Positions 4,155-63,718 of a stretch of DNA of 64,000 nucleotides are shown one piece after another; the stretch's first letter is position 1, and the number at the start of each line of letters is the position of its first letter. Both the position numbers and the translations under genes were made by a program. The notes beneath the pieces were generated by a model. The model was not told the origin of the DNA and ran no database searches. It saw nothing but the letters and a program-made list of their open reading frames with translations. The stretch is from Haliscomenobacteraceae bacterium (GTDB lineage: Bacteria; Bacteroidota; Bacteroidia; Chitinophagales; Saprospiraceae), in assembly GCA_947501115.1 (NCBI GenBank), contig CANMVX010000021.1, positions 1-64,000 on the forward strand, read 5' to 3'.

Positions 4155-5272
4155 TATTTAATATAATTTTCAGGTAAACAATTCATTATGGCGAAAAAAG
4201 TATTATTAAAAGATTTAACATTTTTAAATCCAGCATTGCCTGCCAGTTTAGCCATACTATTATTTTCTAAAAAACCCTCTTCAATAAGTTTAATAGCATA
4301 AGAAATTCTTAGATTAGTTATGTAAGCATTATAATTTAATCCTTTTATACTAGTTAAATGAAAAAGAAGAAAATCAGATTCAATGCCTGACTCTTTGATT
4401 AAATCTTTAATAGTAAAATCAGTTGATAGATAAGAACTCGATGTATTTTCCCAATGTGTCAGTTTCTTCTCAATGACTAAAGGGTCTATTGATTTGATTA
4501 TATTATCTAAAAGGAAGGCTTCATTTATAGTTGCCTTTGCCAGCAAAGGATAACCAGTCATGAGAGAAGGAGATAAAGCAATAAAAACAAAGAAAAAAAA
4601 GGAAATAATAACAGAGAATAAAGTGGTCCAGACAACTAAAATACTTTTATCTAATTCTATGAATCCTATAATCATATAAAAGAAATGTATAAGAACCCAA
4701 GAAATTATAAAATAGAAATAAAATTTGTTAATTTTTTTCTTGTTAATATCCTCTTTGTTGATTTGTTGAAAATTCTTATAAATGTTCAGCAAATAAAATC
4801 CTGAAATAAATCCCAGGGAATGACGAATTATTCTCATTAAACCAACGCCAACATATCCAATGTTTACCTCCTTAACATAACCATTTGTAATAAAATCATT
4901 GATATTTGATAATTGTTCAGGTTTTGATAAAAAGAAATGAAAATAAAGAAAATTGAATATTGACAATATTAAAGGAATAAATAAAGGAAAATGAAATAAG
5001 TGAAATGTATATTTTCCCTTCAATAAATAGATAAAAAAAACAAACACCACTAAAGGGGTGGCATTAAAAAGAATGGAAGGCCAAAGCGTGAAGTAGAAAA
5101 ACAAATTAACATCCTCTAAATCTCTACATATTAACTGAATGTTACTAAAGAAAAAGGTGACGTATAGAAAGGTTAGAAAAAACTTAAAGACCCCATTAGG
5201 AAACTTCAAGATCATCCATATTATAGAAATAATTAGGATAATAAAATTGGAACATAAAATTATAGTTGTCAT
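4154..5272 (-). CDS. Membrane protein with AraC-type HTH C-terminus (copy 2)
   Basis: The product has 372 residues and is the paralogue of the protein at 2248-3378 along its whole length: the same multi-helix membrane part, the same NKEDINKKKINKFYFYF loop and the same AraC-like tail (LRISYAIKLIEEG, then LAGNAGFKNVKSFNNTFF). It differs more than the LuxR partners do, mainly in the membrane helices and the loop near residue 120-140, which is where a signal would be read if the copies have diverged in specificity. It is the first gene of the downstream copy of the two-gene unit. Confidence 0.75.
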   Translation of the reverse strand: MTTIILCSNFIILIISIIWMILKFPNGVFKFFLTFLYVTFFFSNIQLICRDLEDVNLFFYFTLWPSILFNATPLVVFVFFIYLLKGKYTFHLFHFPLFIPLILSIFNFLYFHFFLSKPEQLSNINDFITNGYVKEVNIGYVGVGLMRIIRHSLGFISGFYLLNIYKNFQQINKEDINKKKINKFYFYFIISWVLIHFFYMIIGFIELDKSILVVWTTLFSVIISFFFFVFIALSPSLMTGYPLLAKATINEAFLLDNIIKSIDPLVIEKKLTHWENTSSSYLSTDFTIKDLIKESGIESDFLLFHLTSIKGLNYNAYITNLRISYAIKLIEEGFLENNSMAKLAGNAGFKNVKSFNNTFFAIMNCLPENYIK

Positions 5273-23400: not shown

Positions 23401-26072
23401 GATACCCAGATGGGGCAAGTGATTTAAATGAAAAAAACCTGCTTTCGTTGATGCCTGTTAAGACAGATAAGAGTAAATACAAACCTGGTGAAAAAGCCAT
23501 TTTGTCATTTCCAGGTTCCAGTGAAGGTACGGCTATCGTAACCATAGAAAATGGAAGCAGCGTGTTACAATCCATAAGAGTAAAAACAAAAAAGGGAACA
23601 AACACCGTATCTATTCCTGTAAATAAAGAAATGGCGCCTAATGTATATGCCTACGTGTCATTTATACAATCATATAAAACGGTTAAAAATGATTTGCCGA
23701 TAAGGATGTTCGGCATTTGTCCCATTAAAGTTGAAGATCCATCGTCCATCTTGAAACCTAAAATTCTTACCAAAGAAAGTTTCAAACCCGGTGAAAAAAT
23801 AGCTATAGCCATTTCAGAGGAATCAGGAAAGGCAATGACCTATACCTTATCTGTTGTAGATGAAGGTTTATTGGGAATCACCCGATTTAAAACCCCCGAC
23901 CCTCATGCCTCTTTTTATTCAAAGATAGGGTTAGGCATAAGAACCTGGGACATTTACAATAAAGTTTTAGGAACCTACGTCACTGATTTTGGAAATTTAT
24001 TAGCCGTTGGTGGTGACGAAAGTTATCAATCTGATGCGTTAAATAATACAGGTACCCAATTTAATTCCGTTGTTTTCAGCCTCGGTCCCTTTACCTTGAA
24101 AAAAGGAGAAAAAGTAAATCATACCCTTACATTACCCAATTATATGGGTGCTGTAAGAATTATGGTTGTAGCTAAAAATGAAGCTTCTTTTGGTTCGGCT
24201 GAAAAATTAGTACCCGTAAAAAGCCCGCTTATGCTTTTTGCATCCGCACCAAAAACCCTTGCGACAGGGGACGAATTTTCATTACCCGTAAACATATTTA
24301 GCACCCAAAATAATATAGGTAAAGTAGTTATTACTGCCGAGGATGAGGCAGGAATACTTAAAAATAATACCCCCGGTGTTTCTATAAATATGCAGGGTCT
24401 AAAAGAAAAACTTTCTCAAATATCCTTTAAGGCAGGCAATAAAACAGGCCTGGCTAAAGTAAAGATTAAAATTTCAAGTGCACAAGGTTCTGCATTTCAA
24501 ATGATTGAAATACCTGTTCGAAATCCTAATCCTATCACCTATCGCATAAAATCACAAGTGCTCAAACCAGGTGAAATGTGGACAGAAGACCTGCAAAGTT
24601 TTGGACAAAAAGGTACGAGAGATATTATACTGGAAACCTCAAGTCTTTCAAATATTGGCTTACAAAAAAGGCTTTCCTTTTTACTAACTTATCCTTACGG
24701 ATGTTTAGAACAAACCGTTTCCGCTGCCTTTTCTCAATTGTACCTTGACCAATGGGTTAAGCTGACACCTTATCAGGTTAAACTAAGACAAAAACATATT
24801 CAATCTGCTATACAGCAAATGAATAAATTTCAATTATCCTCAGGTGGTTTCTCCTACTGGCCGGGAAATTATCAATTTGATGAATGGGTTACCAGTTATA
24901 CCGGGCAATTTTTATTAGAGGCCAAAACAGCTGGCTTTATTGTACCTGCAAATATGCTTAAGAAATGGGAAAAATTTCAAGTGAAGCTCGTAAAAGGGTT
25001 AAATATAAATGAGGCCTGGGCGTCTGCTGAAACGTCGCAAATGAATCAGGCATACAGACTTTATACCTTAGCCTTGGCAGGAAAGGCCGAGAAAGGTGCA
25101 ATGAATCAAATGAGAGAAACAAAGTCACTTTATCTATCCGCTGCCAACAGGCTGGCTGGCGCTTATGCCCTGGCAGGCAATAAAGATATAGCCATCAAAA
25201 TTTTAAACAGTAAACAAAAACTGCAAACCAACATTGGCTATTATAATTCTTATGGCTCTGATCTAAGAGATAAAGCGCAATTATTAGAATCTTATATACT
25301 TTCGGGTAATAAGACGGTTTCAGCTAACCTGGCCTTGCAAATGGGAAAAGATCTGTCATCAAATAACTGGTATTCAACCCATTCTACTGCTTATGCATTA
25401 TTAGCTCTCAGTAAATATCTGGGGAACCAAAAAGCGGGGGAACCAACCAAATTTAGATTTAATTCAAAGGAAACAAATGGAAAATGGGTGGATGTCCAAC
25501 ACAATGAAGCCACAAGTTTCACCCAGTTTCAAGATTTTTCAGGCAGGCAAAAAGTGCAAATTAAAAATACAGGCAAATCTACCTTATTCTTTCAATGGGT
25601 ACAATCCGGTCAGGAGGAACTTGGAAAAGTGGTAGCCTCAAACAAAGGAATTTTACTCAACGTAGATTTCAAGTCTTTAAATGGTAAAAAATTAGAACCG
25701 GCACAGATACCTCAGGGTGAGGATTTTATTGCTGAAATAACGGTAAAACATTCAGGAGAAAATCCCTACCATTATCAAGATCTCGGTTTAACTCAGGTGT
25801 TTCCCTCAGGTTGGGAAATTATTAATGAAAGAATCACCGATTTTAATAATCAATCAGGTATAAATTATGATTATTTAGATATCAAAACAGATAGAACCTC
25901 TTATTTTTTTAGCTTACAGGAAAGAGAGGTCAAAAAGTTTACGGTAAAACTAAATGCCACTTTTCAGGGCCGTTATTATTTTCCCGCAGCAAATGTGTCA
26001 GATATGTATAATTATTCTATTTCTGCCAATACAGACGGAAAATGGATTTATGTGTCAAACGTAAAAAAATAA
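20481..26072 (+). CDS. Alpha-2-macroglobulin family lipoprotein
   Basis: The product has 1863 residues. The N-terminus ends in a lipobox (FFETSC, Cys24), so it is probably lipid-anchored in the periplasm. A chain of macroglobulin-like beta domains fills the first 1300 residues. The bait region is not distinct; the YTLSVVDEGLLGITRF strand and the TWDIYN segment are typical of the MG7-8 area. The thioester motif is intact: YPYGCLEQT with Cys1408 and the Gln two residues on. It precedes an alpha/alpha toroid (LSSGGFSYWPG) and a C-terminal receptor-binding-like domain. These proteins trap proteases covalently. The usual partner gene pbpC is not adjacent; a DUF1080 gene follows. Confidence 0.93.
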   Translation: MKTNLNYLFTVFGIIFLCFFETSCKKEDKIIINTLTVDNPYLVSYTSGIISTQSDIQIVFASTNIPGAEAGIEVEASSLTFSPKIEGKVYWKNKNTLVFEPSEPIPPAQNYKVTLDIASLIKDAKAPYDTFSFSFATREQHLGVTIEGLKIFDNQDKNKITFSGSIFTEDIVSKKELRSCVEAKIDGKLVDIVWENDLNDKTHIFSIANIQRIEKQQDIKIKLLGEKIGAPEDYEITYTVPAIGVFTMIKVSPVNNLTEGIRVEFSELLDPNQDLEGFIDIEGYSGSLPYLIEQNTIRIFPENISPGNYVLKVLKGIKSSSGITLNKLIQENFYINPSFPAVTLSGTGAIVPHTEGVLFPFNAIGLSAVDVEIFKVGSHNIVSLLKDNDINEANYNMYRVGKIIKQKTITLHHVNPLKDGMEWKEFYLDLNDLIKTDPGAIYQVRIGFRQEYAINPCLDQSSIDIEKSQSDQIYFKDESGNRMSIMDNFYGGIPYNDNYTWANRDNPCFPEFYNSDRFVSGNLLVSNYGITAKRGSDDLVWVSVSDLITTDPLGNISIDVYNEANDLVAQQKTDQEGIAKINVKNENPAVVVAHSGKNKGYLRLKEEDALNLSRFDISGEQVKGDVRGFIYAERNIWKPGDSLYFNFMLLDKKATLPKEYPITMELFDAKGQLYEKRVTNKQLNGIYPLSLSTQVNDQTGTWRISVKAGANTFEKSFKIESIKPNRLKSTLVFDYTLLKKNQEPFNAQIKANWLTGIPAYECKAVVELKLKDEATVFNTFPSFTFGNEFFKNNSSDAKTVFNGPLSTLGTGAFSLKISENPDVSGKLTALFQTRVFEPSGDFSTTIEKITYHPFSSYVGIEIPLNNWGEPVLAENKPSILRFAIADNEGNPLKNKQISVSLFKTDWYWWWDNNQYKNTDFNTETAKETVKEIMLTTDSKGIATWKLTINEWGRYLLLAEDVSSGHRSAQYIHSGYPDGASDLNEKNLLSLMPVKTDKSKYKPGEKAILSFPGSSEGTAIVTIENGSSVLQSIRVKTKKGTNTVSIPVNKEMAPNVYAYVSFIQSYKTVKNDLPIRMFGICPIKVEDPSSILKPKILTKESFKPGEKIAIAISEESGKAMTYTLSVVDEGLLGITRFKTPDPHASFYSKIGLGIRTWDIYNKVLGTYVTDFGNLLAVGGDESYQSDALNNTGTQFNSVVFSLGPFTLKKGEKVNHTLTLPNYMGAVRIMVVAKNEASFGSAEKLVPVKSPLMLFASAPKTLATGDEFSLPVNIFSTQNNIGKVVITAEDEAGILKNNTPGVSINMQGLKEKLSQISFKAGNKTGLAKVKIKISSAQGSAFQMIEIPVRNPNPITYRIKSQVLKPGEMWTEDLQSFGQKGTRDIILETSSLSNIGLQKRLSFLLTYPYGCLEQTVSAAFSQLYLDQWVKLTPYQVKLRQKHIQSAIQQMNKFQLSSGGFSYWPGNYQFDEWVTSYTGQFLLEAKTAGFIVPANMLKKWEKFQVKLVKGLNINEAWASAETSQMNQAYRLYTLALAGKAEKGAMNQMRETKSLYLSAANRLAGAYALAGNKDIAIKILNSKQKLQTNIGYYNSYGSDLRDKAQLLESYILSGNKTVSANLALQMGKDLSSNNWYSTHSTAYALLALSKYLGNQKAGEPTKFRFNSKETNGKWVDVQHNEATSFTQFQDFSGRQKVQIKNTGKSTLFFQWVQSGQEELGKVVASNKGILLNVDFKSLNGKKLEPAQIPQGEDFIAEITVKHSGENPYHYQDLGLTQVFPSGWEIINERITDFNNQSGINYDYLDIKTDRTSYFFSLQEREVKKFTVKLNATFQGRYYFPAANVSDMYNYSISANTDGKWIYVSNVKK

Positions 26073-57088: not shown

Positions 57089-58351
57089 ATGATAATAGAA
57101 ATTCATTTAAGCAATTTTTACTCTATAAAAGAAGAGGTTGTTTTAGATCTGAAAGCGGGAAATAGTAAAACTCAAAAATCACAAGATTTGAGTCATAATG
57201 TCTTTGATTTTGAAGACACTCAACTATTAAAATCAGTGGCATTGTATGGTGCCAACGCCTCGGGCAAAAGTAATATCATCAAAGGCATACAGTTTTGCGT
57301 GAGAATGATTTTAAATTCGCACAACCATAACGAGAATGTAATTTTTAATTTCAAACCTTTTAAATTTCAGGGCTTTGAAAAAAAACCAAGTACTTTTAAA
57401 ATACTTTTTGCAATCAAAAAAATAGAATATGAATACAGTTTTTCACTGAATCAAACAGAAATCATTACAGAGGAATTGTATTATTACCCAAACGGACGAA
57501 GAGCTAAAGTATTTACAAGGAATGAAACCTTGAGTAATGAAAAAAGTAAAATCTATTCCTTTTCTTCAGCAATAAAAAAGCCCTTGGATGTAGCCGAAAA
57601 CACCTCTAAGAAAACACTTTATATTTCGCGAGCCAGCCAAATGGACAGAGAATTAGCAAAAGACATTTTCCGTTTTTTCAGCGAATCATTTTTTTTAGGA
57701 TATATTGGCTTTGATAACATTGCCGTAGAAAAATTGTTTAATGAAAACAAAAATCAAGTTTTAAAAGCACTGCAAATTGCAGATAGCGACATTATTGATA
57801 TTAAAATCAAAAATGAACTAAAACCGGCAAAAAATCTCAATGCCGATTTTGCAAACAATACTGCATCCATAAAAGATGAAATCCAGCCCCATTTAATAAT
57901 TACCTCTTTTCACAAATCAAACCCCAAAGTAGCATTTGATTTTACTGCCGAAGAATCAGCTGGTACGAAGGCGCTATTTGTGTTTATGCTCACAATTTTA
58001 GATGTAATCAAAAACAATAAAATGCTGTTAGTTGATGAAATTGAAATGAGCTTGCACACAAAAATTGTCGAATACATTATCGAGTTGTTCAATGCCAGCC
58101 AATCCGCACAACTGATTTACTCTACACACAACACCAATCTTTTGAATTTGGATAAATTACGAAAGGATCAAATCTATTTCGTAAACAAAAAAGAAGATGG
58201 TGCTACTGACCTTTATTCTTTATTTGATTACAAAGACTTTAGAGATACTATGGATGTTGAAAAAGCCTATTTGCAGGGCCGTTTCGATGCCATCCCGTAT
58301 ATAAACGACTCCTTTGAGAATTTAAAAAGTTTATTGAATGAGTCGAAATAA
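57089..58351 (+). CDS. rloA: RloA-like / AbiL-type AAA ATPase
   Basis: The product has 420 residues from ATG 57089 (the upstream part of the frame reads through AT-rich leader). It belongs to the OLD/ABC-like ATPase group: Walker A GANASGKS (54-61), an ABC-signature-like EESAGTKALF (288-297), Walker B LLVDEIE (313-319) and the H-loop STHNT (His347). A coiled insertion separates the ATPase halves. It overlaps rloB by 14 bp. In this family the ATPase senses DNA ends or phage activity and controls a partner nuclease; AbiLi and RloA are the named relatives. A TATATTTG box at 57054-57061 is a possible promoter element. Confidence 0.88.
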   Translation: MIIEIHLSNFYSIKEEVVLDLKAGNSKTQKSQDLSHNVFDFEDTQLLKSVALYGANASGKSNIIKGIQFCVRMILNSHNHNENVIFNFKPFKFQGFEKKPSTFKILFAIKKIEYEYSFSLNQTEIITEELYYYPNGRRAKVFTRNETLSNEKSKIYSFSSAIKKPLDVAENTSKKTLYISRASQMDRELAKDIFRFFSESFFLGYIGFDNIAVEKLFNENKNQVLKALQIADSDIIDIKIKNELKPAKNLNADFANNTASIKDEIQPHLIITSFHKSNPKVAFDFTAEESAGTKALFVFMLTILDVIKNNKMLLVDEIEMSLHTKIVEYIIELFNASQSAQLIYSTHNTNLLNLDKLRKDQIYFVNKKEDGATDLYSLFDYKDFRDTMDVEKAYLQGRFDAIPYINDSFENLKSLLNESK

Positions 58352-58901
58352 AAGAATACCAAAAGGGAAGGAAATAAATCCTACTTTTTATGTTTTTTGG
58401 GAGGGCGAAACAGAAGAATCTTACATTAATTATTTGCGTTCAAAATACAGGCTTCCTATTTTGATTGATGCAAAAATCGCAGGCAACCGAATTACCGGAA
58501 AATACATTCAAAACTACAAAAAAGACAAAGCTAATCACCCAAAAGACATAACTTATTTAGTTTATGATATAGATGTGACGGAAATGTTAAGGAAATTACA
58601 AGCTATCAAAAATACTATACTATTAAGCTCCAATCCTTGTTTTGAACTTTGGTATTTGTTGCATGTTCAAGAACAAACAGCAGAAATCACAAGTAAGGAA
58701 TGCATTCAAAAATTAAAACAGCAATTTCCAAATTATGGTAAAGGTCTGTTTAATAATGATTTGAAAAATAAAATTGAAAAAGGTCAAAGTAAAGCTGTGA
58801 ATATAGCTTCAAAATTACAAGAGTTTAAAAATCCTTCTTCGCAAATGTTTGTATTTATTAATGAAATAGAAAAAGTTAAAAAACAAAACAACAAACTATG
58901 A
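58338..58901 (+). CDS. rloB: RloB family protein (TOPRIM-like effector)
   Basis: The product has 187 residues. The RloB pattern is FWEGETEESYINYL (Glu22 and Glu24/26), the acidic VYDIDV (Asp77, Asp79) and SNPCFELWYLLHV (98-110). The Glu followed by DxD arrangement is that of a TOPRIM metal site, so it is the likely nuclease partner of the ATPase, a split version of the OLD or GajA design. The two genes overlap by 14 bp. The stop is overlapped by a further ATG (ATGA) leading into an hsdR-like stub, so the operon originally continued. Confidence 0.87.
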   Translation: MSRNKRIPKGKEINPTFYVFWEGETEESYINYLRSKYRLPILIDAKIAGNRITGKYIQNYKKDKANHPKDITYLVYDIDVTEMLRKLQAIKNTILLSSNPCFELWYLLHVQEQTAEITSKECIQKLKQQFPNYGKGLFNNDLKNKIEKGQSKAVNIASKLQEFKNPSSQMFVFINEIEKVKKQNNKL

Positions 58902-59388: not shown

Positions 59389-59688
59389 TCAGATATAAAA
59401 GGAAACGAACCTTCCCTAATACAGACCAAAATAAGCCCCTGTGGAAAAGAATGCGGTAGGTATAAGCCTTTGGCAGAGAGTTTAAAATGACAGTATTTCG
59501 ACATACGGAACGAGTAAGCCAATACTCAGTGCCCAAAGAGCTCAGGGAAGCACAGGATATTCTATTATCTAAAATGATAAATGGAGGTCAAATTGAGGCG
59601 TAGATGCTTGATGGCAAAGAAAAGAAAACGGTAGTTTTGAAATGATTAACTTAAAAGTGAATCAAAAACTTGCATAATTCAATTATAA
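59389..59688. other. Degenerate stretch before the TAC-like operon
   Basis: About 300 bp without an intact gene. A stop-interrupted frame contains YSVPKELREAQDILLSKMING and then DGKEKKTVVLK, evidently the relic of a coding sequence that I cannot name. The next gene starts with GTG at 59689. Confidence 0.5.
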
Positions 59689-60207
59689 GTGAATACATTT
59701 GCACTTGAAATATTTGACGACCAAGGGCAGGTTTGCACTTTTTACACCGTGAGGTGGGAAGATGCAACCCTTTCGGAAACCGATAAGTTTTTTCAAAAAT
59801 TCAGATACGATGAACAACTCAAAAATTCATTACGAGAACTGGCAAGCTTTCTTGAAGTGGTCATTGGAGATGAACATGGAGCGTTGGAATATTTCTTCAG
59901 ATTTGAAAATGCTGCACAAGCACTTCCCCCTTCGGGTACTTACAAAGTGCAAGATATATCTATCAAATATGGTAATTTCCCCCTCCGATTGTATTGCTTG
60001 CGAATTTCAGAAAACTTGGTGGTATTGTTCAATGGTGGGGAAAAAACAGCTGGTACAGCACAAGGCGGAAGAACAAGTATGGTATTTCAGGAAGCCAATA
60101 TTTTCGCCAAACGTATTTTGGACGCATTACAACAAAAAGAAATTTACATTACTACTGACCAAAGAGCTTTTCGCTATTACGATGACAGTGATGAAATAAT
60201 AATTTAA
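59689..60207 (+). CDS. Putative toxin of a TAC-like operon (HigB/RelE-like core, unfamiliar)
   Basis: The product has 172 residues, GTG start (an in-frame stop directly precedes it, so no earlier start exists). The late part, LRLYCLRISENLVVLFNGGEKT then FQEANIFAKRILDALQQ, resembles the HigB/Gp49 RelE-fold core, where a basic and aromatic beta sheet attacks mRNA on the ribosome. The first 90 residues (CTFYTVRWEDATLSETDKFF and on) form an N-terminal extension not found in classic HigB. It is followed 12 bp later by an XRE-HTH gene and a SecB-like gene. The toxin role is inferred from gene order and this core. A second frame inside it is a shadow. Confidence 0.6.
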   Translation: MNTFALEIFDDQGQVCTFYTVRWEDATLSETDKFFQKFRYDEQLKNSLRELASFLEVVIGDEHGALEYFFRFENAAQALPPSGTYKVQDISIKYGNFPLRLYCLRISENLVVLFNGGEKTAGTAQGGRTSMVFQEANIFAKRILDALQQKEIYITTDQRAFRYYDDSDEIII

Positions 60208-60219
60208 AAGATAAACAAA

Positions 60220-60633
60220 ATGAGGAGTAAGATATTTCAAGAAATATTAGACGAAACCCCGGAAGATGTTGAAATCTTTGTGAGGCTTTATGCCGACCTG
60301 GTGGTTCGCATCAATCAGCTATTACTAGAAAACAACATCAGCAAAAAACAACTCGCAGATAAGTTGGATAAAAAACCATCGGAAATTTCCAAATGGCTTA
60401 GCGGTGAACATAATTTCACTCTTCGTTCACTGGCAAAATTGTCAGCTGAACTGGGAGAACCATTATTAGAAGTGCCCAAGAAAAAAGCAAAGACAGAATT
60501 TGTAGAAGATGGATTTATTTGCAGGGTGCACACCTTTGTTAGTTACACAATGCTCGACACAAAAACGAGTGGAAAAGTTTGGCAATTTGCCGAAGAAACA
60601 GAACCCTATAATGAATTGAGCAATGCAGGATAA
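60220..60633 (+). CDS. XRE-family antitoxin with C-terminal extension (HigA-like)
   Basis: The product has 137 residues. A helix-turn-helix spans about 30-88 (ENNISKKQLADKLDKKPSEI, then SGEHNFTLRSLAKLSAEL). After it comes a 50-residue tail (from KKAKTEFVEDGF to the end, with KVWQFAEETEP), beyond what DNA binding needs. In known TAC systems a similar tail on HigA (the chaperone-addiction region) is bound by SecB-like chaperones. The downstream SecB-like gene overlaps this gene by 11 bp. It probably represses the operon and neutralises the first gene's product. Confidence 0.8.
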   Translation: MRSKIFQEILDETPEDVEIFVRLYADLVVRINQLLLENNISKKQLADKLDKKPSEISKWLSGEHNFTLRSLAKLSAELGEPLLEVPKKKAKTEFVEDGFICRVHTFVSYTMLDTKTSGKVWQFAEETEPYNELSNAG

Positions 60634-61075
60634 AAATGTTTTTGACCCTGAAAAGATTGCTTTGATTGATTTCAAAATGATAAAAGGACAGACGGATACT
60701 CCTGAAATGTTTGACATTAACAAAGTTATCGGCTACAAATTGGACAACACCTTACAATTGGGCTTCAACCTTGAGGAAAAACTGGCTAAAGCAGCTTTCA
60801 AAGTAAGTGTTATGACTGACAGTAAAGGTGAAAACGAATGCGAAGCAACTGGAAATTTTCATTTGATTTTTATTTACCGAATAGAAAATTTAGAAGAGCT
60901 TGCCTCTCCGGAAAAAAACAAACGATTGCATTTAAATCCTGCATTAACCAATGCAATTTCATCGGTTACCTATTCCACCTCAAGAGGAATACTTTTAACC
61001 CGTTTACAAGGAACTGCATTACAGAATTTTGTATTACCCATTATCAATCCTAATAACCTGTTGATTAACAAATAA
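60623..61075 (+). CDS. SecB-like chaperone (TAC system)
   Basis: The product has 150 residues. The pattern fits SecB: an N-terminal beta half with LQLGFNLEEKLAKAAFKVSV and FHLIFIYRIENLEEL, and the hallmark C-terminal part with ALTNAISSVTYSTSRGILLT, QGTA, and FVLPIINPNNLL, parallel to SecB's helix, RGGFPPLLLPP and NF..L ending. The genome probably also has its own housekeeping protein-export chaperones; this one lies 11 bp inside the antitoxin gene, so it is part of the module. Its likely job is to fold or protect the antitoxin through the C-terminal tail. Confidence 0.72.
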   Translation: MQDKNVFDPEKIALIDFKMIKGQTDTPEMFDINKVIGYKLDNTLQLGFNLEEKLAKAAFKVSVMTDSKGENECEATGNFHLIFIYRIENLEELASPEKNKRLHLNPALTNAISSVTYSTSRGILLTRLQGTALQNFVLPIINPNNLLINK

Positions 61076-61260
61076 TTCCTACGGCTTATTTTTGAATCAA
61101 TTAGGCTGGTATATGATATTGGCATACGACAAAGAGGGCTTTGGCGAAGGAAGCACTTTGGGCAGACTGAATATAAAAGAGTCCAATCCGACCTTCCCGA
61201 CTTTGCTTACAATGAAGCTTATGAAATACTGATGGAAGAAAACATTACCAAGTCAATTGG

Positions 61261-61297
61261 TGGATAATCCGGTGGTCAATTTGAACCGGATTATCCA
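61261..61297. repeat. 12-bp perfect inverted repeat
   Basis: TGGATAATCCGG (61261-61272) and CCGGATTATCCA (61286-61297), 13-base loop. Short GGTGG motifs recur nearby. There is no T run, so it is not a standard terminator; it may be the end of a lost element. Confidence 0.75.
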
Positions 61298-63250: not shown

Positions 63251-63718
63251 ATGATAAAGCGCGTTTATATTGATACATCAGTATTTGGTGGAAATTTCGA
63301 TGAGGAATTTTCAACAGATACCATTACATTCTTTGATAGAGTTAGAAATGGAGAAATAACGATAATAGTTTCTGATATACTTGAGGCTGAATTATTAGGT
63401 GCGCCTGACTTTGTAAGACAACTTTTGGATAGTTTTTCAAATGAGTTCATAGAAAGAGTTAGATTATCAAAAGATGCTTCGGAATTAGCCGATAAGTATA
63501 TTGAAGGGAAAGTTGTAGGGAAAACAAGTAAGGCAGATTGTCAACATATTGCCATTGCAACAGTTTGTCATGCGGATGTTTTAGTTAGTTGGAATTTTAA
63601 ACATATTGTTAATTTAGATCGAATCAGAGGCTATAATGGAATTAATTTTCAAAATGGTCATCAAATGATTGAAATAAGAACGCCAAAAGAAATTTTTAAT
63701 TATGGAAACGAAGAATAA
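63251..63718 (+). CDS. PIN-domain toxin
   Basis: The product has 155 residues. The PIN nuclease fold is evident from VYIDTSVFGGNFDEEF (first Asp), the central VSDILEAELLGA (Glu), and KADCQHIAIATVCHADVLVSWNFKHIVN (third and fourth acidic positions, then the conserved WNFKH). A small partner gene overlaps its 3' end by 17 bp. PIN toxins cut RNA and are held by a cognate antitoxin. In most vapBC pairs the antitoxin comes first; here the partner is downstream. It lies next to the second 148-bp repeat and between heptamers. Confidence 0.88.
   Translation: MIKRVYIDTSVFGGNFDEEFSTDTITFFDRVRNGEITIIVSDILEAELLGAPDFVRQLLDSFSNEFIERVRLSKDASELADKYIEGKVVGKTSKADCQHIAIATVCHADVLVSWNFKHIVNLDRIRGYNGINFQNGHQMIEIRTPKEIFNYGNEE

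Follow-up and report, generated by a model that had tools for sequence, protein, structure and literature searches.

Toxin-antitoxin-chaperone (TAC) systems were first described as stress-responsive growth switches (PMC5105189, PMC4257090); three of them, CmdTAC, MqsRAC and HigBAC, are reported to be active against phage (PMC9519451, PMC11618068, PMC11980606). The antitoxin of such a system carries a chaperone-addiction domain (ChAD), which is reported to be transferable and to be absent from chaperone-independent antitoxins (PMC5105189). Contact between antitoxin and chaperone is reportedly broken in E. coli by the major tail protein of phage lambda (PMC11980606), and extra chaperone is reported to abolish protection by CmdTAC and to inhibit protection by MqsRAC (PMC9519451). 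Two sets of residues serve as landmarks: W108, R110 and Y114 of HigA1 (PMC6377645), an arrangement that we read as W-x-R-x3-Y, and the basic catalytic residues R68, R77 and K95 of HigB-TAC (PMC9098466). By 2014, 33 TAC chaperones were known that PF02556 did not include, and the association of toxin-antitoxin pairs with SecB is reported to have arisen several times (PMC4257090). Nine SecB sequences from Bacteroidetes are counted in PMC4361572, TAC not being named in the passages available; in those of PMC6504116 and PMC7159879 a SecB-like chaperone appears just in the reference lists.

The locus considered here occupies positions 59689-61075 of the window (the whole stretch of DNA analysed, 64 kb) and consists of three intact ORFs, all on the (+) strand, in the order toxin candidate (T), antitoxin candidate (A), chaperone candidate (C). 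As the initial annotation had it, the genes are closely spaced or overlapping: 12 nt separate T from A, and A and C share 11 nt. Judged from sequence, structure models and analogy, this operon is very probably a TAC module and would act as a growth switch, probably a phage-triggered one.

Coordinates of the operon, its putative control sites and neighbouring features in the window
Feature	Position	Strand	Evidence and remarks
AbiL pair: AAA_21 ATPase, AbiLi-like, and RloB/AbiLii-like protein	57089..58901	+	PADLOC AbiLi 8.3e-83, AbiLii 1.4e-18; PF13304, PF13707; upstream of the TAC operon
Possible remnant of hsdS 3' end	59538..59597	+	tblastn E=0.03, weak; distance from T about as that of hsdS in L023
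Operator-like palindrome 1, TTAACTTAAAAGTGAA	59646..59661	.	exact match to family motif
Operator-like palindrome 2, TTCAATTATAAGTGAA	59678..59693	.	one mismatch; overlaps toxin GTG start codon
Toxin candidate (T)	59689..60207	+	172 aa, GTG start; divergent HigB/RelE relative; PDC-M64B 3.7e-52; Gp49/HigB profile link E=1.2e-9; dN/dS 0.12-0.16
Antitoxin candidate (A)	60220..60633	+	137 aa, HTH and C-terminal tail; PF01381 1.2e-10; PDC-M64C 7.1e-34
Antitoxin tail, putative chaperone-addiction domain	60475..60630	+	residues 86-137; RVHTFVSY, W121, C-terminal LSNAG; long tails only where chaperone gene present; tail alignment
SecB-like chaperone candidate (C)	60623..61075	+	150 aa, 11-nt overlap with antitoxin gene
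hsdR remnant (subunit R of type I restriction), split into two pieces that lie in two frames	61065..61261	+	tblastn E=7.7e-15; downstream of C

Three genes and their products

All three look like genes under purifying selection, since dN/dS against relatives is low (T and A each against three relatives, A at 0.07-0.24; C at 0.08 and 0.09 against two of them, the comparison with the third being saturated). Each protein also matches, by individual protein models, the phage-defence candidate PDC-M64 of PADLOC-DB (C at 1.7e-24), and so do all 30 toxins of the alignment described below. The PADLOC-DB entry as returned bears neither description nor mechanism, and a full-text literature search for the exact name PDC-M64 gave no paper. 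PDCs are candidates from a guilt-by-embedding approach (PMC12988326); the passages of that source on immunity discuss other PDCs, 'M64' being absent from them.

Standard family models pass the third protein by: C has no Pfam family and no match to an NCBIfam SecB model, PHROGs gave nothing of note, and PDB sequence searches with proteins of the operon, as single proteins and as profiles, gave no relevant match. Against Pfam SecB (PF02556) the window protein is likewise without a match, and one of 40 relatives reaches that model, at E=0.1. Yet a C profile aligns with a 5-row SecB alignment at E=3.5e-5 (profile-profile, probability 72%), an HMM of the same five SecB rows draws 35 of the 40 relatives at E<=1 in a 40-sequence search, and the best PDB matches of the C model in Foldseek are SecB chains, the top one being 5MTW, the M. 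tuberculosis TAC chaperone with a ChAD peptide. (A technical note: the structure models are of single chains, folded with 7-8 sequences; that of C is weak at its C-terminal end, residues 94-112 and 114-150 falling under pLDDT 50, and C is 11-13% identical to the M. tuberculosis TAC chaperone in the structure alignments.) The structure search thus assigns the modelled third protein to the SecB fold, and its earlier description as SecB-like holds on that ground, though no SecB HMM matches it; the HMM check, which could have counted against the description, gave no match, and the fold match is positive.

A Pfam SecB search matched four of 198 Bacteroidota genomes. In three of the four, the SecB protein follows a toxin (E 1.1e-41 to 3.1e-38) and an antitoxin (2.7e-29 to 1.7e-27) of the T and A families. 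At L101, L102 and L104, T- and A-family genes precede a Pfam SecB-family protein that is not matched by our chaperone profile; at E 0.1 this profile picks up none of the Pfam SecB proteins from L101-L104. Replacement of the chaperone or its extreme divergence suggest themselves as alternatives for these sequences.

The first protein, T, has no Pfam family of any kind, with nothing relevant in NCBIfam and nothing of note in PHROGs, and none of 30 toxin relatives matches PF05973 (Gp49/HigB) at E<=1. A toxin profile built from those 30 relatives draws matches from 70 of the 396 genomes searched in the order, and in whole genomes it reached Gp49 proteins at E 2.3e-7 to 9.8e-4. From the weak end of its list, eight stretches carrying short open frames were taken; the eight proteins concerned, which the toxin profile finds in the ORF set at E 1.3e-8 to 2e-5, are all Gp49/HigB (PF05973, 2.2e-7 or better). 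Aligning the T alignment with seven of these eight by hhalign gives a probability of 96.4 and E=1.2e-9 over 80 columns, covering window residues 29-125, against E=0.093 for the control with the chaperone alignment; the 12 nearest toxins taken by themselves give E=1.1e-7 over 36 columns. These comparisons support T as a divergent clade linked to the HigB/RelE superfamily, rather than the distinct class that had been held open for it. The call of a HigB-like toxin survives in the profile link to Gp49/HigB and fails in the Pfam search against PF05973.

A HigB core placed behind an unusual 90-residue N-terminal extension is to be rejected: in the profile alignment, which spans residues 29-125, the HigB-like domain begins at about residue 29 instead of 90, and the low-confidence model of T puts two strands and two helices ahead of residue 64. 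What T has in addition is a short strand region at the N-terminus, an insert around residues 81-91 and a C-terminal end. The order of elements in the model (pLDDT 44.5) fits a BECR fold, and a PDB structure search with it gave nothing useful; with so poor a model, the absence of HigB among the matches is no evidence.

Does this toxin do what HigB does? Six residues are invariant in the 30 aligned toxins (F34, G64, E73, R100, G116 and K119). Two of them, R100 and K119, align with the Gp49 positions equated with R77 and K95 of HigB-TAC, which argues for a ribosome-dependent RNase and against a member of the RelE superfamily with another target (ParE-like or other). That second proposal, which we consider unlikely, draws on the remaining basic catalytic position, R68, where T has a variable residue, S91, and on a strongly conserved family-specific stretch, F70-R/K71-x-E73 with A78-L79 (R/K at 71 judged by eye).

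The second protein conforms to its earlier description as an HTH antitoxin with a tail of about 50 residues; counted from the end of the HTH model, the tail has 52. In close relatives it opens with basic residues, often KKK or KRK, keeps a hydrophobic/aromatic patch and a Trp, and frequently ends in SNAG or NNVG/SNVG; the HigA1 arrangement is absent from the window tail. The motif proposed as chaperone bait, KVWQF, lies in the tail and includes W121, a Trp kept, by our count, in 15 of 18 aligned relatives. It is a plausible part of the bait; a second, aromatic patch, RVHTFVSY, starting at residue 102, is also kept in the nearest relatives (alignment, our count), so that KVWQF is not the sole candidate.

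Antitoxins end in two small residues at 33 of 62 three-gene loci, against none of the 62 toxins and none of the 62 chaperones; the same end occurs in 9 of 22 loci without A-C overlap. One can think of a C-terminal degron on the tailed antitoxins, but this stays an idea because tail-less antitoxins share the end (3 of 10), and because the comparison is confounded by common ancestry and by gene overlap at the start codon of the chaperone.

Tail and chaperone across related loci

Pooling the toxin and chaperone searches gives 75 distinct toxin ORFs, 62 of them with A and C, 10 with A only and 3 without A. The toxin search by itself contributes 56 ORFs: 53 have an adjacent antitoxin and 43 of these also have the chaperone, which is missing from the other 10 pairs. 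The T-A-C arrangement, in the M. tuberculosis order as first annotated, is far more than chance. A toxin widely found without the other two genes would have told against the TAC reading; in fact T was not found alone, the three exceptions among the 56 being one ORF at a contig end (L025) and two pieces of interrupted toxin genes.

If the tail is a chaperone-addiction domain, then tail and chaperone should be present or absent together, as is reported for the ChAD. Behind the HTH, 35-81 residues follow in 61 of the 62 three-gene loci, and 3-18 residues in all ten two-gene loci. (Three further loci with Pfam SecB, outside the main count, have tails of 28, 29 and 50 residues and thus bring the two groups closer together than the main count suggests.) On a tree of 70 toxins, from which L002 and L034 were dropped for their short toxin ORFs, the presence of the chaperone changes at least 9 times, 6 of these on well-supported branches, and in all six supported independent pairs the tail accompanies the chaperone (p=0.031 in a two-sided sign test); of 200 random pairings, 2 contained one pair without a difference. 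The evolutionary behaviour of the tail sequences supports their being ChAD-like. Since the chaperone profile misses the SecB proteins of L101-L104, the ten two-gene loci were searched with a SecB HMM as well: neither it (best E 0.53) nor the chaperone profile (best E 0.55) finds a hidden chaperone, and Pfam finds no SecB among ten ORFs near the antitoxins of these loci. Two downstream ORFs there have no assigned family (110 aa in L006, 132 aa in L073) and leave a little room for a hidden chaperone.

A more trivial reason for the joint presence can be imagined. The A and C genes overlap in 37 of the 59 loci with a usable chaperone ATG, so that one 3' deletion could remove tail and C at a stroke; the tail might then be a regulatory or DNA-binding extension with no functional coupling to C. 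This is improbable, given that two-gene antitoxins, which stop 3-18 residues after the HTH, occur at 6 to 9 independent points on the toxin tree and that among the 62 three-gene loci just one, L018, has C without a long tail, its antitoxin frame being broken into two pieces. Taken together, the SecB fold, the toxin not found alone and the tail that tracks the chaperone sustain the TAC reading as a whole.

Some loci depart from this plan. At L037, L047, L048 and L058, the ORFs upstream of related chaperones and tailed antitoxins are small and go unrecognised by the toxin profile, which suggests from sequence that one chaperone family is combined with several toxins. The window's own genome holds a second antitoxin-chaperone pair (L002, contig C54, about 23878-24858) whose toxin ORF has just 62 residues; G846, another genome of the genus, likewise has a toxin match with a 62-residue open frame. 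An antitoxin-chaperone remnant lacking a toxin may thus be retained.

Profile searches covered Bacteroidota; beyond the phylum, single proteins or narrow alignments were used. Two relatives lie on plasmids. A phage origin was considered and rejected: there is no toxin relative among 50,697 phage records, and in IMG/VR a single toxin or chaperone, or three other subfamily alignments, gave no match, while two narrower alignments led to one and the same viral contig, which bears the whole operon and a terminase.

Start region, neighbours and a possible mechanism

Near the toxin start the family has a 16-bp palindromic motif, TTNACTTAWAAGTNAA, with the core ACTTNNAAGT. Start regions were taken as about 100 bp upstream to 19 bp inside the gene, 15 of the 75 rows being dropped for want of a usable start or flank. 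The exact core occurs in 40 of 60 start regions against 0/60 inside the gene, 0/59 further upstream and at most 2 in shuffles; one mismatch being allowed, the figures are 52/60 against 6/60, 1/59 and at most 17, and eight loci have no core even then. The two window sites have their centres 32 bp apart; nowhere else does the window come within one mismatch of the 16-bp motif. A DNA hairpin predicted at 59640-59700 (z -3.3) is accounted for by these palindromes, which are putatively the operator of the antitoxin. GTG is the commonest toxin start by our rule (38 of 58). Many loci also have, by eye, a TAnnTTTG motif inside toxin codons 2-4; it is reminiscent of the Bacteroidota -7 element, and in that capacity would place the transcription start behind the GTG.

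The neighbourhood is one of defence genes, some of them in ruins. The window's T, A and C are intact beside restriction genes that have decayed; to the remnants listed in the table can be added a weak trace of an hsdR start upstream of the toxin (E=0.64). Directly behind C, an open hsdR (HSDR_N, SWI2_SNF2) runs off the fetched stretch in L023, L024, L026 and L027, and L121 and L123 have a full-length hsdR at the same place. Type I restriction-modification (RM)-like genes or remnants (E<=1e-6) are present in 12 of 28 distinct wider loci, a raw count, 18 of the loci having been picked by hand from the stronger hits and three repeats removed before counting.

Several details of these surroundings deserve record. 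In L026 a truncated copy of the hsdR start upstream of the toxin (2705-2835) is 92 percent identical to the start of the downstream hsdR (4382-4512), which suggests an insertion that duplicated the 5' end of hsdR. The AbiL and TAC genes of the window have three pairs of imperfect direct repeats around them, 59229-59388/63000-63159 (93 percent), 58959-59038/61309-61388 (85) and 55746-55817/59154-59225 (92), perhaps the boundaries of a cassette or of recombination. Downstream of short, apparently decayed frames, 63251-63718 is an ORF weakly like a PIN domain (PF16289, 1.4e-4). At L069 (2556-3521) a toxin-antitoxin pair with neither tail nor chaperone lies 250 bp ahead of a Cas9-like frame (PF16593 bridge helix, 9.3e-11).

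Computation gives the order of the genes, the fold of the chaperone, the family link of the toxin, the coupling of tail to chaperone, the palindrome and the defence genes nearby; from described TACs we infer autorepression, toxicity, chaperone dependence, proteolysis, a phage trigger and mRNA cleavage, along the following lines. The HTH domain of A would repress the operon from the palindromes at the toxin start, and A would hold T inactive. The tail would keep A unstable unless the dedicated SecB-like C is bound to it. On infection a trigger would draw C away; the likeliest is a phage protein, on the reported model of CmdTAC and HigBAC. A would then be degraded and T freed. Being a relative of HigB/RelE, T probably cuts mRNA at the ribosome, and growth would stop before phage is made.

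It may be asked whether phage enters into the matter at all. The operon might be a stress or plasmid-stabilising addiction module of TAC type with no anti-phage role, standing among defence genes by shared mobility: TACs were first seen as stress-responsive switches, two relatives are plasmid-borne, and the window copy has outlived its RM neighbours. We regard this as possible but on the doubtful side. The operon is catalogued as a phage-defence candidate, it has AbiL for a neighbour and type I RM genes or remnants recur beside its relatives, and three described TACs are reported to act against phage.

The phage-triggered switch can be carried a step further, into a tentative proposal that we would not press. 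Tail and SecB-like chaperone may form a detachable sensing cassette, added to or lost from one divergent clade of HigB-like toxins many times; in type I restriction loci it might arm a second, abortive layer that fires when restriction fails; and the active site of the toxin may be a rearranged one, made up of R71/E73 together with R100 and K119.

The practical lesson is that TAC-like systems appear to be not rare in Bacteroidota but missed by the usual models for SecB and HigB. Toxins that are related to one another, some accompanied by tail and chaperone and some not, are natural pairs for learning how an ordinary toxin-antitoxin becomes chaperone-dependent and what it gains by this against phage; the conserved palindrome at the toxin start offers a direct handle on regulation, and the position directly before hsdR suggests cooperation with restriction.

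Comparison with known systems

The architecture is already known, and the proteins are already on a list of defence candidates, all three matching PDC-M64 at 1.7e-24 or better. What appears to be new is the interpretation of PDC-M64 as a TAC whose toxin is HigB-like, the gain or loss of tail and chaperone together on repeated occasions, the palindrome and the position next to hsdR; these do not figure in the literature passages at hand, and earlier description elsewhere is possible.

With CmdTAC of E. coli the operon shares the three-gene architecture and a chaperone of the SecB fold. CmdT is described as an ADP-ribosyltransferase (PMC11618068) and by that description would differ from the window toxin, the latter's sole profile link being to Gp49/HigB, with no Pfam match. 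The two-gene HigBA-like pairs of Bacteroidota with Gp49 toxins (PF05973) resemble it in having the toxin followed by an HTH antitoxin (7 of 8 fetched stretches) and in detectable profile similarity; they differ in the shorter toxin (about 110-120 aa) and in having no chaperone match in the fetched stretches. Against the M. tuberculosis TAC (HigB1-HigA1-SecB-TA, Rv1955-Rv1956-Rv1957), the window system has a toxin that lacks one catalytic position and is some 50-60 residues longer than the Gp49 proteins compared, a tail built otherwise than that of HigA1, and a chaperone far removed in sequence, at the 11-13% identity given above. The two systems share a toxin, an HTH antitoxin with a C-terminal extension and a SecB-like chaperone, in that order, the toxin related to HigB and the predicted chaperone fold finding its best match in the M. 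tuberculosis protein itself.
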